Below are positions 19,249 through 29,414 of a stretch of 41,962 bases of DNA, piece by piece. The stretch is from Xanthobacteraceae bacterium. GTDB lineage: Bacteria > Pseudomonadota > Alphaproteobacteria > Rhizobiales > Xanthobacteraceae. The notes beneath the pieces were generated by a model that saw nothing but the letters and a program-made list of their open reading frames with translations, did no database searches and was not told the DNA's origin. The translations under genes were made by a program, and so were the position numbers. Numbering within the stretch: position 1 is the first letter of the stretch; the number at the start of each line of letters is the position of its first letter. Location of the stretch: contig JASHPW010000127.1 of NCBI GenBank assembly GCA_030037895.1, forward strand, positions 1-41,962, given 5' to 3'.

Positions 19249-21414
<2,166 letters not shown>

Positions 21415-21660: not shown

Positions 21661-21930
21661 TCAACGGCGAATACCCAGCCGTTCGATCAGCTCCTTGTAA
21701 CGCCCCTCGTCCGTGCGCCGAAGATAATCGAGTATCTGGCGGCGCTGCGACACGAGCCTTAACAGCCCGCGCCGCGAATGGTTGTCTTTGATGTGGGCCT
21801 TGAAGTGATCCGTCAGGTTGTTGATCCGCTCCGACAACAGCGCAACCTGGACTTCGGGCGAACCCGTGTCGCCGGTTTTGACGGCGTATGTCTCGATAAG
21901 CTCCGCCTTACGCGCGGTGGTAATCGACAT
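21661..21930 (-). CDS. rpsO: 30S ribosomal protein S15
   Basis: An 89-residue primary-binding ribosomal protein contacting helices 20-22 of 16S rRNA and bridge B4. Motifs are textbook: [28 protein letters not shown] (core [13 protein letters not shown]), [37 protein letters not shown], and the C-terminal [12 protein letters not shown]. The frame continues upstream into truB, but ATG 21930 begins the conserved [12 protein letters not shown]. Only two bases separate it from the truB stop, so it is in the same transcript. The hairpin after it is likely to shape rpsO versus pnp expression. Confidence 0.98.
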
Positions 21931-21932
21931 CG

Positions 21933-23024
21933 TCACCAACCTTTTCCTCTGCCGGCACGGCCGGCCACGCCGGTCAAATTGAACACGCGCCTGGGGACGA
22001 CTTCGCCGCGGTCGACTTCGGCAATGGCCACGAGTTGACCGCTGCAAGCGACCTGGACCACGCCGCCGGAAATGGCGGCGTCCCGTCCGCGCAACAAAAC
22101 GGCTTGACCCCGGCGGAGTCTTGCCGCGTCTGCCGGGCTCACGGCCAGCGCCGGGATGTCGTCCAGCGCGGTTTCGATCGGCAGCAGAAAATCGGCGAGA
22201 CTTGCCTCGCCAGCGGCCGCTCTATGGCATAAAGATTCGAGCCGTTCCAGCGAAATCATGTCGCTCTCGCCGAACGGGCCGACCCGGCTGCGGCGCAAGG
22301 CCGCAACGTGACCGAGCGCTCCGTGCGCGCGGCCGAGGTCGCGGGCAAGCGCGCGCACATAGGTTCCCTTGCCGCATTCGGCCGCGAGCACGGCGTGATC
22401 CGGATCGGGCGTGGCGACGAGGGCGAGCCGATGTATCGCGACCGGGCGCGGGGCGATCTCGACCGCTTCGCCTTCGCGCGCCAGATCGTAGGCGCGCTCG
22501 CCGTCGATCTTCACCGCGGAAAATCGCGGCGGCACTTGCTCGATCGTGCCGGTGAAGCGCGGTAGCAGGGCGTGGATTGCCGCCGCGTCGGGACGGGCCG
22601 CGCTTGTATTCACGACTCGGCCTTCGGCGTCGTCGGTATCGCGCTCCTCGCCCCAGCGCACGGTAAACCCATAAGCCTTGCGGCTGTCGACCACGAACGG
22701 GACGGTCTTGGTTGCTTCGCCGAGTGCGATCGGCAGACATCCGGAGGCCAGTGGATCGAGCGTGCCGGCATGGCCGGCGCGCTTGGCCGCGAACAGGCGC
22801 TTGACGATCGATACGGCGTGCGTCGAGGTCATGCCGATCGGCTTGTCAAGCACGACCCAGCCGTGCACGTCGCGCTTTATTTGTTTGTTCTTTTTCGCCG
22901 CCTGCTCGGAACGTCCCCCTTCTCCTTGCGGGGAAGGGTCGGGGTCGTCCCGTCGCGCGTGTGCGACGGCGACCCCGGCGAGGGGGGACATATCGGTGGT
23001 CGGCACGCGCGGCGCCTTATTCAT
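21933..23024 (-). CDS. truB: tRNA pseudouridine-55 synthase TruB with extended N-terminus
   Basis: A 363-residue enzyme making pseudouridine 55 in the T-loop of tRNAs. Catalytic region is intact: [17 protein letters not shown] near 55, the motif with catalytic Asp [23 protein letters not shown] (core GTLDPLASG), and [19 protein letters not shown]; the C-terminal PUA-like part runs to the end. The start ATG overlaps the rbfA stop by four bases (ATGA), which supports translation from 23024. Residues 12-37, however, are encoded by a REP-like palindrome, so the first 50 residues are not part of the conserved enzyme. There is no better start between the repeat and KRDVHGW. The extension is probably disordered and tolerated. 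Confidence 0.95.
22913..22989. repeat. REP-like palindromic element translated within truB
   Basis: Nested inverted repeats: outer GTCCCCC (22913-22919) with GGGGGAC (22983-22989); inner GGGGTCG (22941-22947) with CGACCCC (22970-22976); core CCGTCGC (22950-22956) with GCGACGG (22963-22969) around a 6-base loop. CTTCTCCTTGCGGGGAAGGG resembles repeats common between genes in Bradyrhizobium-like genomes. Here it is read in frame without a stop. Confidence 0.7.
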
Positions 23025-23434
23025 GACTCGTCCTCTTCGCCGTCGAGGTCGCGCCGGACGGCGGGCGTCCGCAACAGCTTCTCGATTCGGTCCGCTTCGT
23101 CGAATCGCTCGTCGATGCGGAAGCGAATCTCGGGAGCGAATTTCAGGTTGACGCGCCGCGCGATTTCGCCGCGCATGTAGCGCTTGTTGCGGTCGAGCGC
23201 ATCGAGCACCTTTTCTTCATCGCCCCCGCCGAGCGGCATGACGTAGATCGTGGCGAGCCGCAGATCGGCGCTCATGCGCACTTCGGGGACCGTGATCGTG
23301 TGCGCTTCGATCACCGGATCATGGATGTCGCCGCGCAAAAACATGTCGGCGATGGCGTGGCGGACAAGCTCGGCGACGCGCAGTTGACGCGGTGAAGCGC
23401 CGGCCGTCGGATCGCGATGCTGCTGATGTGCCAT
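23021..23434 (-). CDS. rbfA: Ribosome-binding factor A
   Basis: A 137-residue KH-like protein that binds immature 30S subunits and helps mature the 5' end of 16S rRNA, important in the cold. Motifs: [21 protein letters not shown] near 18, [24 protein letters not shown] in the middle, and [25 protein letters not shown] at the end. ATG 23434 begins MAHQQHRD; the upstream frame to 23695 is not coding. The stop overlaps the truB start by four bases. It follows infB after a 170-base gap that holds a short repeat, the largest gap inside this operon apart from rpsO-pnp. Confidence 0.96.
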
Positions 23435-23455
23435 TCTCTTCGCTATTTTTCGTCG

Positions 23456-23480
23456 CCTCCGGGCTTGATCCGGGCATCCA
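23456..23480. repeat. Short palindromic repeat in the infB-rbfA gap
   Basis: CCTCCGGGCTTGATCCGGGC followed by ATCCA resembles the very common alphaproteobacterial intergenic repeat whose minus-strand form reads TGGATGCCCGGATCAAGCCCGG. The arms CCGG (23459-23462 and 23470-23473 region) can pair. The rest of the 170-base gap shows no feature I can name. Confidence 0.5.
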
Positions 23481-23604
23481 TATTGATTTCTGCGACGATC
23501 GACCTTGCTCGATGGATTGTCGGCACTGCGCACCAAGGCGGCGCCTCGCGCCTGTTGCCGGCGCTGACGGGGCTCGGCGCCACGCGCGGATGTGAGCCTT
23601 GAAC

Positions 23605-26187
23605 TCACAGCGTCCGCTGCACGCTCTCCACCCGGTAGCACTCGACCACATCGCCGACCTTCATGTCCTGGTAGTTCTCGAAGGCCATGCCGCATTCCTG
23701 GCCGGCGACGACCTCGCGCGCGTCGTCCTTGAAGCGCTTGAGCTGCGACAGCTTGCCTTGATGGACGACGACGTTGTCGCGAATGAGCCGCACATTGGCG
23801 CCGCGCTCGACGACACCGTCGGTCACGCGGCAGCCGGCGACGTTGCCGACCTTGGAAACCTTAAAGATTTCGAGAATCGCGGCGTTGCCGAGTATGGTCT
23901 CGCGCAGCGTCGGCGCCAGCAGACCCGACATCGCTTTCTTCACGTCATCGACCAGGGCGTAGATGATGTCGTAGTAGCGGATCTCGACGCCGGCCCGCTC
24001 GGCGGCTTCGCGCGCCTCCTTGTGCGCGCGGACATTGAAGCCGATGACGGCGGCGCCTGAGGCTTCCGCCAGCGTTACGTCGGATTCGGTGATGCCGCCG
24101 ACGCCGGCGAAAATGACGCGCGCGGCGACCTCCTCGGTCGATAATTTCTCCAGCGCCCCGACGATGGCTTCGATCGAGCCTTGCACGTCGCCCTTGATCA
24201 CCAGCGGGAATTCCTTGCGGCCGGCGATCTTGAGCTGGTTCATCATCTGCTCGAGCGAACCGCGCATGCCGGTCTGCCGCGCCGCCATTTTTTCGCGCTT
24301 CTGCCGGACGCGATAGTCGGTGATCTCTCTGGCGCGCCCCTCGGTGGCGACGACGGCGAGCCGGTCGCCGGCCTCCGGCGTGCCGTTGAAACCCAGCACC
24401 TCGACCGGCATCGACGGGCCGGCCGCCACCACGGAATGGCCGGTGTCCGCCACCAGCGCGCGCACGCGGCCCCATTCGGAGCCGGCGACGACGATGTCGC
24501 CGGGCTTGAGCGTGCCGCGTTGCACGAGGACGGTCGCAACCGGGCCGCGACCGCGATCGAGCCGCGCTTCGATCACCGTGCCTTCCGCCGGCCGGTTTGG
24601 ATTGGCCGTGAGTTCGAGGACCTCGGCCTGGAGGGCGATGACGTCGAGCAGCTTGTCGAGATTGCGCTTCTCCTTGGCCGACACCTCGACTTCGAGCACC
24701 TCGCCGCCGAGCGATTCGACCTGGATCTCGTGCTGCAAGAGTTCATTGCGCACGCGCTCGGGCTTGGCGTCCGGTTTGTCGATCTTGTTGATGGCGACGA
24801 TGATCGGCACCTTCGCCGCCTTGGCATGTTGGATCGCCTCCACCGTCTGCGGCATGACGCCGTCGTCGGCGGCGACCACCAGCACCACGATATCGGTGAT
24901 CTTGGCACCGCGCGCGCGCATGGCGGTGAAGGCGGCGTGGCCCGGCGTGTCGATGAAAGTGATGCGGCCGCCGGAGGGCGAGGTCACCTGGTAGGCGCCG
25001 ATGTGCTGGGTGATGCCGCCGGCCTCGGCGGCCGCGACATCGGTCGAGCGAATGGCGTCGAGCAGCGACGTCTTGCCGTGATCGACGTGGCCCATGATGG
25101 TCACGACCGGGGCGCGCGGCTGCAGGTTCGCCGGGTCATCCGGAGCGGCGAACATGCCTTCTTCGACGTCCGATTCGGCCACGCGCCGGACGGTGTGGCC
25201 GAGCTCCTCGGCAATGAGCTGTGCGGTATCGGCGTCGATCGTATCGGTGATCTTGGCCATGTGACCCTGCTGCATGAGGATGCGGATCACGTCGACGGCG
25301 CGCTCGGCCATGCGATTGGCCAGTTCCTGGATCGTGATCGTTTCGGGGATGGTCACCTCGCGGGCGATCTTTTCCTTCGGCTCGTCGCGGTGGCCGGTCA
25401 TGCGCTGTACGCGGCGACGGAAGGAAGCGACCGAGCGTTCGCGGATTTCGTCGGCGGAAAGCGCGGTCACGACGGTCAGCCGGCCGCGGCGTTTTTCGCC
25501 GCCGCTGCGCGGGGCCTTGGGCGCGGGCGCCGGCCGCGCCGCCGCGCCGCCGCGGCGGACACGCGGGGCCTCTTCCTCGTCGGCTTCGAGCGATGGTCGC
25601 GCGCCGCCCGGCTTTACCGTCGCCGTCTCCACGCCGAACCGCTTCTTGGCGACTTCGTCGGCCTTGCGCTTGGTTTCTTCATCGTGTTTGCGGCGTTCTT
25701 CTTCGTCGTGTTTGCGCGCTTCCGCCTTCGCCCGCTCGGTGCGTTCCGCTTCTTCGCGGCTTTGGCGAATACGCGCCTCTTCCTCGGCGATCTTGCGCTC
25801 TTCCGCCTCACGCAGGCGGGCGTCGGCGAGCGCATGGGCGCGGGCGCTGCGCTCCTCTTCCGTGAGCGTTCGCAGCACGACGCCGGAGGACTTGGGCGCG
25901 GCGGGAGCCGCGGCCGGCGCGGTTGCAACGGCGGCTGCGGCCGCCGCGGATTTGATGGCGGGGCGCTTCGGCGCAGTAGCGCGATCCACGGGCGCTGCCG
26001 CTTCTGCCTTGGTCTCGCTTGGACCGGCAATGCGGCGCTTCACCTTCTCGACGACCACCGCCTTGCTGCGACCATGGCTGAAGCTTTGGCGCACCACGCC
26101 CTGCTCGACGCCGCCGCGTTTGAGCGTCAGCGTCTTCGTCGAGCTCACGCTCAGCTTCTCGCCGCTGTTCTTTGTCGTCTCAACCAT
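23605..26187 (-). CDS. infB: Translation initiation factor IF-2
   Basis: An 860-residue GTPase that brings fMet-tRNA to the 30S subunit. The N-terminal 330 residues are charged and Ala-rich with a coiled-coil run of Arg/Glu around 130-210 and a [11 protein letters not shown] segment. The G domain starts near 360: [16 protein letters not shown], then [24 protein letters not shown] and a SAKEKRNLD region. Domains II-IV follow, ending [19 protein letters not shown]. Four possible ATGs lie at 26208-26187; 26187 ([14 protein letters not shown]) matches relatives best, but the choice is uncertain. Translational isoforms from internal starts are known in other bacteria and cannot be judged here. Confidence 0.97.
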
Positions 26188-26224
26188 CCGCACCATATCC
26201 ATACGCATCGGTAGCGCCGGCCCG

Positions 26225-26890
26225 CTAGTTCGGCGCTGCCTTCCCGGCCTGATTGTGCTGATCGCCGGTCCGAAACCGTTCAAGGCGCCGGCATCGCGCC
26301 AAAAAGGTTTCGCTCGCTGGTCCGGCGAGCAGGGCTGCATGTACCACATTTGCGCGGTGCAATGCCAAATCCAATTGCGCCGAGGTGAGGAATCCGATCA
26401 CAACGGGCGGTCGGGCCGATCGCCCTCGGCGCAAGGCCGCGTCGAGCTTGCGGATTCCCTCTACCGAAGCCTCGGCGGCGTGCAAAAGAGCGACTGGCTC
26501 CTCCCGCTCGAGCGTCGCTTCGCTTTTCGCGAAGCCGGCGGCGACCAGTCCGGACTTGCCGGCGATGGCGAGCGCATCGAGGGCGGCGCGTTCCAGCAGG
26601 CGCTCGGTGCGGACGACGAGGTCCGAGGGGAGGCGAACCTCGCGCTTGAACCCACGGACAAAGGCTTTGCGCTTGATCGCTTCACCGAGCGCATCCTTTG
26701 TCGCGGTCACCCAAAGGCCGCGTCCGGGCAATTTGTGTTTGACATCGGCGACCGCCTCGCCATCCGGCCCGATGACGAACCGGATCAGGTCGGAGATCGG
26801 CCGCACGGTGCGCGTGGCGACGCAGAAGCGTTCGCGTGCGTGTCCGCGCGGTCCGCTGTCGAACTCGACGTCGGCGGTCGGGGCAGTCAT
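26225..26890 (-). CDS. ylxR: YlxR-type RNA-binding protein with L7Ae-like C-terminal domain (DUF448)
   Basis: A 221-residue protein between nusA and infB. Residues about 15-95 are the YlxR domain ([21 protein letters not shown], then [20 protein letters not shown] with the GRGLWV signature). Residues 110-210 resemble an L7Ae/S12-like domain ([50 protein letters not shown]). The two-domain form is typical of alphaproteobacteria. It likely binds structured RNA in transcription or ribosome assembly; the exact role is unknown. ATG 26890 has AAGGAG about 9 bases before it, a strong ribosome site. It follows nusA after 16 bases. Confidence 0.9.
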
Positions 26891-26906
26891 GCGCGCGTTT
26901 GCTCCT

Positions 26907-28514
26907 TCAGCTCTGCGCCTCGGGGAGCGTCGCCTCCTCCGCGACCGGCGGCGGAGCCAGGTCGGCCTCGTCAACCCAGCCGGCCTTCAGCCGCGCCTGC
27001 ATGATGAGCGCCTCGATGTCCTCGCGCGGAATATCGAAGTCGTCGAGAATGCCGGCTTCGCGGACGGTCTCGCCGTCCTTGCGCTCGGTCCAGCCGGCGA
27101 GGTCGTCGGTCGCACAGCCGGCCAAATCCTCGACGGTCTTGATGCCGTTCTCGCCGAAGCGGACCAACATCGCCGTGGTGACGCCGGACACCTCCTTGAG
27201 CGCGTCCTCCACCCCAAGCTCCTTGCGTTTGGCGTCGAGCTCGGCCTCGATCTTGGCGAGGTAATCGCGGGCGCGGGTCTGCAACTCGCCCGCCGTGTCG
27301 GCATCGAAGCCTTCGATGCCGGCGATCTCCTTCACATCGACCATCGCCAAATCCTCGACCGAGCCGAACCCTTCCGCCGCCAGCAATTGTCCGATCACCT
27401 CATCGACGTTGAGCGCCTCGACGAACAGGCGCGTGCGGTTCTCGAACTCGGCCTGGCGACGTTCCGATTCCTCCTGTTCGGTGAGGATGTCGATGTCCCA
27501 GCCGGTGAGCTGGGAGGCAAGCCGCACGTTCTGGCCGCGCCGGCCGATGGCGAGCGAGAGCTGCTGATCGGGCACCACCACCTCGATCCGCTCGCGCTCC
27601 TCGTCGAGCACCACTTTGGCGACCTCGGCGGGCGCCAGCGCGTTGACCACGAAAGTCGCAACGTCTTGCGACCACGGAATGATGTCGATCTTCTCGCCCT
27701 GCAGCTCGTTGACCACCGCCTGCACGCGCGAGCCGCGCATGCCAACGCAGGCGCCGACCGGATCGACCGAGGAATCGCGCGATTGAACCGCAATCTTGGC
27801 GCGCGAGCCGGGATCGCGTGCCACCGCCTTCACCTCGACGATGCCGTCGTAGATTTCCGGCACCTCCTGCGCGAACAGCTTCGACATGAATTGCGGGTGG
27901 GTGCGCGAGAGGAAAATCTGCGGGCCGCGTTGCTCGCGGCGGACGTCGTAGATGTAGGCGCGGATGCGATCGCCGTTGCGGAACTGCTCGCGCGGCAGCA
28001 TCTCGTCGCGGCGCACGATCGCTTCGCCGCGACCGAGATCGACCACCACGTTGCCGTATTCGACCCGCTTGACGATGCCGTTGACGATGTCGCCGATGCG
28101 ATCCTTGTACTCGTCGTATTGGCGGTCGCGTTCGGCTTCGCGCACCTTCTGCACGATCACCTGCTTGGCCGATTGGGCGGCGATGCGCCCATATTCGAGC
28201 GGCGGCAGCGAATCGGCGATGGTGTCGCCGATCTGCGCGGCGGGATGCCGCCGCCGCGCCTCGTCGAGGCTGATCTGCGATGCGGGATTCTCGACGGCCT
28301 CGACCACCAGCATGTGCCGGGACAAATGCAGTTCACCGCTTTTCGGGTCGATCTCCGCGCGCACTTCGGTCTCGCTGCCGTAGCGCGCGCGGGCGGCCTT
28401 GGCGATTGCGTCCTCCATGGCGCCGAGCACGATCTTGCGATCGATCGACTTTTCCCGGGCGACCGCATCCGCGATCTGTAAGAGTTCGAGTTTGTTGGCG
28501 CTGACCGCCGCCAT
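26907..28514 (-). CDS. nusA: Transcription termination/antitermination factor NusA
   Basis: A 535-residue RNA polymerase-binding factor. The N-terminal domain (LELLQIADAVAREKSIDRKIVLGAMEDAI, core KSIDRKIVL) runs to about 130, the S1 domain has GIVKRVEYGNVVVDLGRGEAIV, and the two KH domains contain DPVGACVGMRGSRVQAVVNEL and LSLAIGRRGQNVRLASQL. The C-terminal 160 residues include acidic helix-hairpin repeats (EVSGVTTAMLVRFGENGIKTVEDL). Length is as expected. It lies 3 bases after rimP and 16 before ylxR. Besides its role in pausing and antitermination, NusA could act on the attenuator-like hairpin in this operon's own leader. Confidence 0.97.
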   Translation of the reverse strand: MAAVSANKLELLQIADAVAREKSIDRKIVLGAMEDAIAKAARARYGSETEVRAEIDPKSGELHLSRHMLVVEAVENPASQISLDEARRRHPAAQIGDTIADSLPPLEYGRIAAQSAKQVIVQKVREAERDRQYDEYKDRIGDIVNGIVKRVEYGNVVVDLGRGEAIVRRDEMLPREQFRNGDRIRAYIYDVRREQRGPQIFLSRTHPQFMSKLFAQEVPEIYDGIVEVKAVARDPGSRAKIAVQSRDSSVDPVGACVGMRGSRVQAVVNELQGEKIDIIPWSQDVATFVVNALAPAEVAKVVLDEERERIEVVVPDQQLSLAIGRRGQNVRLASQLTGWDIDILTEQEESERRQAEFENRTRLFVEALNVDEVIGQLLAAEGFGSVEDLAMVDVKEIAGIEGFDADTAGELQTRARDYLAKIEAELDAKRKELGVEDALKEVSGVTTAMLVRFGENGIKTVEDLAGCATDDLAGWTERKDGETVREAGILDDFDIPREDIEALIMQARLKAGWVDEADLAPPPVAEEATLPEAQS

Positions 28515-28517
28515 GAT

Positions 28518-29213
28518 TCAGTCTCCATTGCGCTGGCGCCCGCGTCGGTCTTGCTCCGCCGCGGCGTCCATCGGTTTCGATCGGTGAGATTCCCGTCCGT
28601 TGCGTCCTCGCCCGCGAGCTTCGTGCTCGCCGGCGGTGTCGCCATGCTTGCTCCGCCGCAACGCCGCGGAAATGAGCGCATCGGTGAGGGCAAGCTTCGC
28701 TTCCGTCATGTCGTCGATCCGCAACAGGATTTCCGTCCGCTCGGCCGCGGCTCCCTCAAGGCAACGAAGGCGCACGCACTCGCCGTCGGCGCCGACAAGC
28801 TCGCCGCGGAAGCGCCGGCGGCCGGCGATGGGAACGAGCATCTCCACCTGGGCGAACTGGCCGGCATAGCGGTCGAAATCCGAGCGCCGCACCAGCGGCC
28901 GGTCGATGCCGGGCGAAGAGATCTCCAGCCGATACGGACCTTCGATCGGGTCGGCGGCGTCGAGCACCGGCGAGAGCGCCCGGGAAGCCGCTTCGCAATC
29001 CTCGATGCTCATGGCGCCGTCGGGCCGCTCGGCCATGATCTGCACCGTACAGCCGGAGGCCGCCGAAATGCGCACGCGCACCAGCCGATAGCCGAGCTCC
29101 GCCAGCACCGGTTCGACGATCGCGGCGATGCGCGCGGCGCGCCCGGGCTCGGTGATGAGCCGCTCTTCGTCGGCAAAGGTCGTCAGCCTGTCGTCCATGC
29201 TGTCCGCGGCCAT
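28518..29213 (-). CDS. rimP: Ribosome maturation factor RimP
   Basis: A 231-residue 30S assembly factor. The N-terminal domain has [22 protein letters not shown] and [22 protein letters not shown]; then comes the hallmark [25 protein letters not shown] (core SSPGIDRPL) and a C-terminal SH3-like barrel with [12 protein letters not shown]. The last 45 residues form a basic, low-complexity tail ([14 protein letters not shown]), longer than in most relatives. ATG 29213 is used; an in-frame ATG at 29198 is possible. It is first in the operon, behind a 130-base leader containing a terminator-like hairpin. Confidence 0.95.
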
Positions 29214-29261
29214 CTAATCCTGCACCAGGATCCGGCAAAGGAAGGGTCGGCCCTCGGGTAA

Positions 29262-29320
29262 CAAAAAAGAGCGGGTCCCGGGGGGCCCACTCTCAAAACC
29301 GTTCGGATGAACCGACCGTT
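29262..29320 (-). promoter_or_regulatory. Attenuator-like leader of the rimP-nusA-infB operon
   Basis: Read leftwards, AGAGTGGGCC (29293-29284) pairs with GGACCCGCTCT (29278-29268; one mismatch, one G-T) and is followed by TTTTTTGT, a full intrinsic terminator about 50 bases before rimP. An upstream hairpin (29297-29320, loop TTCAT) could form first or be alternative. A terminator between promoter and first gene is the layout of transcription attenuation. I do not recognise a named RNA family. Confidence 0.7.
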
Positions 29321-29347
29321 ATGAGGTATCCAATGACGGACGCGCCG

Positions 29348-29375
29348 AATATAACCTTTTATCAGGCCGTTGCAA
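29348..29375 (-). promoter_or_regulatory. Likely promoter of the rimP operon
   Basis: On the minus strand TTGCAA (29375-29370), 16 bases, TATATT (29353-29348). It is the best sigma-70-like match in the gap and lies just upstream of the leader hairpins, giving a leader of about 130 bases. Confidence 0.55.
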
Positions 29376-29393
29376 GAGGCCCTTCAGGGATCG

Positions 29394-29414
29394 GTAATCA
29401 GTAATCAGTAATCA
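29394..29414. repeat. Tandem repeat, three copies of GTAATCA
   Basis: Three exact 7-base copies in a row, 50 bases before the DUF2336 gene and just upstream of the rimP promoter on the other strand. Slippage here could alter spacing of either promoter. Confidence 0.8.

Follow-up and report, generated by a model that had tools for sequence, protein, structure and literature searches.

What the short RNA leader in front of the rimP-nusA-infB genes does for these genes was the question raised by this locus of a Xanthobacteraceae bacterium. The window, i.e., the whole stretch of DNA analysed (41,962 nucleotides), carries on its minus strand the gene order rimP, nusA, ylxR, infB, rbfA, truB, then rpsO (S15) and pnp (Table 1), with NusA, IF2 and 30S assembly factors among the products of the operon. 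From this order we infer a cotranscription of rimP-nusA-ylxR-infB-rbfA-truB. The S15 match on the listed rpsO frame starts at residue 47, thus the true rpsO start lies further downstream. The leader is arranged on the minus strand as promoter, P1, P2, P3, U6 and then rimP; a preliminary description of the locus had named no strand, and all of its elements lie on the minus strand. An attenuation of the operon by this leader is well supported at the level of sequence, by the conserved promoter, by the divergent gene next to it in the window and by the scant room that some loci leave for a second promoter. We regard the leader as probably an attenuator of the rimP-nusA-ylxR-infB-rbfA-truB operon that is subject to negative feedback by NusA.

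Table 1 Leader elements and genes of the rimP operon region, with positions in the window
Feature	Position	Strand	Basis or remark
-35 hexamer TTGCAA	29370..29375	minus	conserved in relatives
-10 hexamer TATATT, spacer 16	29348..29353	minus	conserved in relatives
Predicted transcription start, 6-8 nt past -10	29340..29342	minus	from position only
Hairpin P1, UCCG...UGGA	29329..29340	minus	predicted fold
Hairpin P2, closing UCA/UGA, CUC/GAG with one extra pair	29293..29324	minus	predicted fold; shuffle test
Terminator stem P3, GAGUGGG...CCCGCUC, fixed U.G pair	29269..29292	minus	sequence, fold, alignment
U6 tract	29263..29268	minus	sequence; weakened in six relatives' loci
GTTACC directly 3' of U tract	29257..29262	minus	kept in most aligned family members
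rimP	28518..29213	minus	RimP_N and RimP C-terminal SH3 domains
nusA	26907..28514	minus	NusA_N, S1, KH domains
ylxR	26225..26974	minus	DUF448; ORF as listed, start probably further downstream
infB	23605..26349	minus	IF2
rbfA	23021..23695	minus	
truB	21933..23024	minus	
rpsO	21661..22047	minus	ORF as listed; S15 match at residues 47-127
pnp	19249..21414	minus	polynucleotide phosphorylase

The preliminary description had reported a TTGCAA/TATATT promoter, a hairpin and a T6 terminator before rimP, and these were recovered by their coordinates as well as by the pattern in the relatives. TTGCAA-16-TATATT was the only promoter-like site listed between positions 28000 and 30500, with 0.2 ± 0.4 sites in shuffled sequences. 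Forty-one of 57 loci reached a promoter score of at least 10/12 versus 1.5 % of resampled sequences, and 51 of 57 at least 9/12 versus 9.6 %, in a scoring that used the window's own hexamers on loci of which many are near relatives. The predicted leader RNA of about 75 nt presents two small hairpins, P1 and P2, followed by the intrinsic terminator P3; an 81-nt leader folded with -31.4 kcal/mol (z -3.14), equalled by 1 of 200 shuffles. The U tract ends 49 nt before the rimP ATG at 29213. P3 was not listed in a simple terminator scan of the window, presumably because of its 10-nt loop, the scan being limited to loops of 3-8 nt. Just 5' of the -35 hexamer, tandem TTACTGA-like units were observed on the minus strand, TGATTACTGATTACCGATCCCTGAA (29383-29407), a sequence unique in the genome at up to three mismatches. 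Stretches resembling it are present upstream in several members of the genus, e.g., L006, L012, L013, L014 and L017; TGATTACTGATTACCGATCCCTGAA is possibly a regulator site.

A terminator at this position might simply close an upstream transcription unit, an explanation that we consider extremely improbable. It has a precedent in locus L372, where a same-strand Methyltransf_4 gene (probably trmB) precedes. In the window, however, the gene beyond the leader (DUF2336) is divergent, thus P3 is not the 3' end of the upstream gene, and the conserved promoter lies between this gene and the terminator. Ordinary terminators, moreover, do not retain this sequence, as seen in the control described below (0 of 109 among the matches listed).

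The reading as an attenuator was followed through the order by comparison. RimP was present in all 61 genomes, to which the organism of the window contributed one and its relatives 60, and by a loose pattern within 420 nt of RimP the terminator preceded rimP in 58 of the 62 loci from these genomes. Four loci were off the pattern: L019 at a contig end, L035 with the stem present and the U tract lost, L048 with the wobble U replaced by C, and L060 with a GGGCT...AGCCC hairpin and a T run, without GUGG. A covariance model built from 33 family members had a single match at E <= 10 in the window's genome, located at the leader, in a search of an assembly 89.9 % complete with 150 of 545 first-look candidates scored. 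The covariance search across the order, which the preliminary description had proposed, gave a match in 183 of 297 genomes (E <= 0.01, strict filters). At all of the 19 best order matches after the window (L064-L082) RimP was encoded downstream. Second matches in G231 and G058 were other terminators without RimP, and the genomes G041 and G043 were missed by the model, yet carry the element by pattern (loci L053 and L046).

The terminator stem is the most constant part of the leader. P3 pairs were standard in 99.7 % of the cells of an alignment with 73 distinct rows, and the fixed pair was U.G in 73 of 73. Three of the eight P3 pairs were invariant and two varied on one side; for the other three, two-sided changes were counted in 1, 1 and 3 rows. 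Since P3 barely varies while P1 and P2 vary with compensation in the same alignment, the comparison shows selection on the letters of P3 and not on pairing alone; the parts of the putative leader, their order, the promoter and their conservation are established by the same kind of comparison. Intact P3 stems were followed by at most 4 T in 8 bases in L030, L031, L033 and L042 of the window's family and in L035 and L050 of two other families. Either termination may be weak at these loci, or P3 may have another role; a stem kept beside a weak U tract would agree with termination assisted by a factor, or with a further role of the stem. P2 and the letter-fixed P3 might, end to end, constitute one composite RNA site read by a specific partner, the KH/S1 domains of NusA or another operon product, as opposed to the generic hairpin effect of NusA. 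We hold this for unlikely. If true, the fixed U.G in Hyphomicrobiales would be a part of the site, and the stem kept where the U tract is weak would mark a function beyond intrinsic termination. The hexamer following the U tract, GTTACC or ATTACC, is conserved in most aligned family members though it lies beyond the termination point.

Evidence for the two hairpins upstream of P3 depended on the alignment. On the structure-fitted alignment 75.5 % of the P1 cells were paired, and P1 was weak on the structure-blind alignment. In P1 and P2 together, 20 of 26 pairs were altered on both sides versus 13.6 in shuffles, a strong result obtained on this structure-fitted alignment. With the structure-blind alignment A1 the excess was small: both sides were altered in 6 pairs, where shuffles gave 4.1 and 86 of 500 were at least as high; the covariation score was matched by 26 of 500 shuffles. 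RNAalifold predicted P3 alone on both alignments and did not find P1 and P2. In 56 loci the region 5' of P3 had a mean fold z of -1.26, with z < -2 in 16 loci. P2 is supported chiefly by an alignment-free shuffle test, for which 169 loci with the P3 stem were taken; 8 were without CTC within 48 nt, and the remaining 161 gave 114 distinct CTC-to-GAG segments, near relatives included, of which the inner letters were shuffled. Thirty-eight of the 114 segments folded at p <= 0.05 (5.7 expected) with a mean z of -1.56, figures that are inflated by kinship, and 97 of 114 were closed by CUC/GAG. As to the covariation among relatives on which the preliminary description had made its reading depend, the P2 hairpin is kept while its letters change widely, and P3 is so close to invariant that it has little scope to covary. 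Judged by these comparisons P2 is likely real and P1 plausible. P2 abuts P3 without a linker, and both may compete for one base pair.

An antiterminator was not found in the leader. A long pairing of P2 with the sequence 3' of the U tract was rejected, as it is not conserved in relatives (by eye). The short open reading frame AUG-GAU-ACC-UCA-UAA of some relatives was dismissed too, its start codon not being kept in L002, L009 and L016. An S15-type GU/GC motif was considered as a candidate in the leader; its orientation does not appear to fit.

Specificity was assessed with the exact P3 pattern GAGAGTGGG-N4..20-CCCGCTCTTTTT, scanned over 84,980 species genomes, which gave at least 118 loci. Among the matches listed, 109 of 118 were followed by RimP on the same strand, two loci were too short to tell, and seven were without RimP, by title from Verrucomicrobia, Akkermansia and Poribacteria. 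Four of the listed matches, L091, L112, L102 and L162, are verrucomicrobial loci with the exact pattern in which RimP was not found; L091 and L112 are near-identical over more than 70 nt before the terminator pattern. From the end of the pattern to the RimP alignment 22-226 nt were counted, with a median of 105 nt among the matches listed. In the closest 20 of the 109 listed, the start codon nearest the RimP alignment lay 10-33 nt past the five T of the pattern, thus little room remains for a separate rimP promoter. These observations bear on an independent small RNA gene acting in trans, with its own promoter and terminator and merely placed before rimP. A promoter, about 75 nt and a terminator are the anatomy of a small RNA, and the leader is structured according to the predicted fold and the P2 shuffle test, but the presence of RimP behind all 109 of the listed loci that were long enough, the seven loci named above aside, the short distance to the start codon and the single promoter-like site render this explanation very improbable. 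The leader may have a second function in trans.

Outside the order, 110 upstream stretches of other Alphaproteobacteria were cut, 109 of them long enough. A hairpin scoring at least 10 was present within 420 nt in 82 of 109 and absent in 27. The best hairpin had a GTGGG (GUGGG) 5' arm in 63 of the 82 and lacked it in 19. In a control on 111 of the pattern-scan loci listed, GTGGG occurred in 0 of 109 other terminator-like matches, the control genomes and the class-sample genomes being different sets. The partner arm in the 63 GTGGG hairpins was CCCAC in 32, CCCGC in 26 and another sequence in 5; as GTGGG is kept while CCCAC and CCCGC alternate, the letters of the 5' arm tend to persist, and the base paired with the U is sometimes A and sometimes G. 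A mimicry of the boxA motif by CGCUCUUU was rejected because of these 32 CCCAC arms. When the covariance model was applied to the whole class, 40 genomes out of 385 had a match (E <= 0.01). RimP was encoded in 14 of the 29 loci fetched, so many of the weak matches at class level are other terminators. P3 is kept near letter-for-letter across the order, and the GUGGG arm is common across the class. Such a conserved hairpin offers a clean test of the self-control of a general transcription factor and of sequence recognition in hairpins.

For the operon of the window, RNA polymerase would start at the conserved promoter, synthesize the leader of about 75 nt and meet the P3 terminator, where some polymerases would stop and others read through into rimP. 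Polymerase-bound NusA would most likely raise the termination at P3, hence a high level of NusA would lower the expression of its own operon. Termination at P3, its partial nature and NusA as the sensor are what we infer here, and NusA feedback is likely the best model for this leader. The preliminary description had taken it for an attenuator-like leader of the operon, a view that position, promoter, terminator and scant promoter room support well. For the autoregulation by NusA that it also proposed, the support comes from precedent in another bacterium. A NusA attenuation of the nusA (ylxS) operon of Bacillus subtilis was reportedly described by Mondal in 2016. According to the part of a review consulted, B. 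subtilis NusA is autoregulated via NusA-stimulated termination in its own 5' leader (PMC12288461), and a NusA-dependent negative feedback of PylxS appears in a passage of another paper (PMC6200986). Both systems share, as far as these excerpts go, a terminator in the 5' leader of an operon encoding NusA; however, B. subtilis belongs to a different phylum, and the likeness is one of the described mechanism.

A closer relative was found in the rimP-leader, which Naville and Gautheret (2010) head 'the most ubiquitous transcription attenuator' in the main text of their paper (PMC2965389). The terminator described in this text is short and situated 4-130 nt from the gene; its GGGc...gCCC stem motif is unusual and exceptionally well conserved, no larger conserved element accompanies it, and in its general form an antiterminator is not visible. 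NusA is proposed there as the best candidate for the sensor. By its sequence, the leader is the alphaproteobacterial form of this rimP-leader in the broad sense. Compared with that text, the terminator of the window likewise precedes rimP-nusA-infB, lies inside the 4-130 nt range, and consists of GUGGGC...ACCCGC and T6 with the GGG/CCC core; where the motif has its lower-case g ahead of CCC, the window has A and many relatives have G. Unlike the form described there, the terminator of the window is accompanied by P2 (more weakly by P1) and a promoter, and its stem is fixed as GUGGG/CCCGC with U.G. This fixed stem and the adjoining P2 hairpin we regard as new. The main text of PMC2965389 does not contain 'alphaproteobacteria' or 'rhizobi', and its supplementary lists may hold such members. 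By title, none of the publications retrieved for 'rimP leader' or 'rimP-leader' dealt with Alphaproteobacteria, and no title found in the rimP/nusA literature of rhizobial, alphaproteobacterial or small-RNA scope reported the leader. In the available text of selected alphaproteobacterial papers, supplements aside, the term nusA was absent, as was rimP where it was asked for.

The search against RNA family models of leader attenuators, proposed in the preliminary description, brought no match: an Rfam search of the window and of the region gave nothing at gathering score, including riboswitches and ribosomal-protein leaders. Five matches below threshold (E 0.37-7.3) look like chance. This outcome matters for the view that the attenuator of the same operon is relieved or driven by a factor other than NusA, which we consider somewhat unlikely. 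Cold-shock proteins might melt the terminator, or, in connection with ribosome assembly, a product of the operon or its neighbourhood (RimP, S15) might bind P2/P3. Antitermination by the CspA family was reportedly described by Bae in 2000. For Escherichia coli, the terminators t1 and t2 before rimP and a rise of the operon transcripts in the cold are described in the part of PMC6511841 consulted. In the window rpsO and pnp come after truB, and P3 is kept as letters with P2 abutting, as a protein site might be. Against this view, the Rfam search found no ribosomal-protein leader at gathering score, an L20-leader match appeared only at E 4.3, and the letters of P2 vary widely. Cold-shock proteins or another operon product as the factor are live rivals to NusA feedback.

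The Rfam model of the rimP leader, RF01770, is gammaproteobacterial, and not one of the 61 genomes of the window's organism and its relatives attained the cut-off of 47 bits; our own covariance model covers a leader that is out of its reach. Both leaders resemble each other in the last hairpin, which in E. coli (102 bits) is UGGGCU...GCCCUUUUUUU just before rimP. By contrast, the tandem upstream terminator CCCCG...CGGGG (CCCg...cGGG) of RF01770 is absent, by reading, between the promoter of the window and rimP, and the window has no tRNA gene. A tRNA remnant in P2, suggested by CUCAUAA, was rejected, as ARAGORN and Rfam detected no tRNA in the window. Outside the class, GGGC...GCCC and a T run preceded rimP in 12 of 22 loci (by eye). 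A tRNA-Met gene was located before rimP in 17 of these 22 loci, metY being annotated there in E. coli, and the anticodon loop of these tRNA-Met genes has the same letters, CUCAUAA, that occur in P2 in the window and in its genus.
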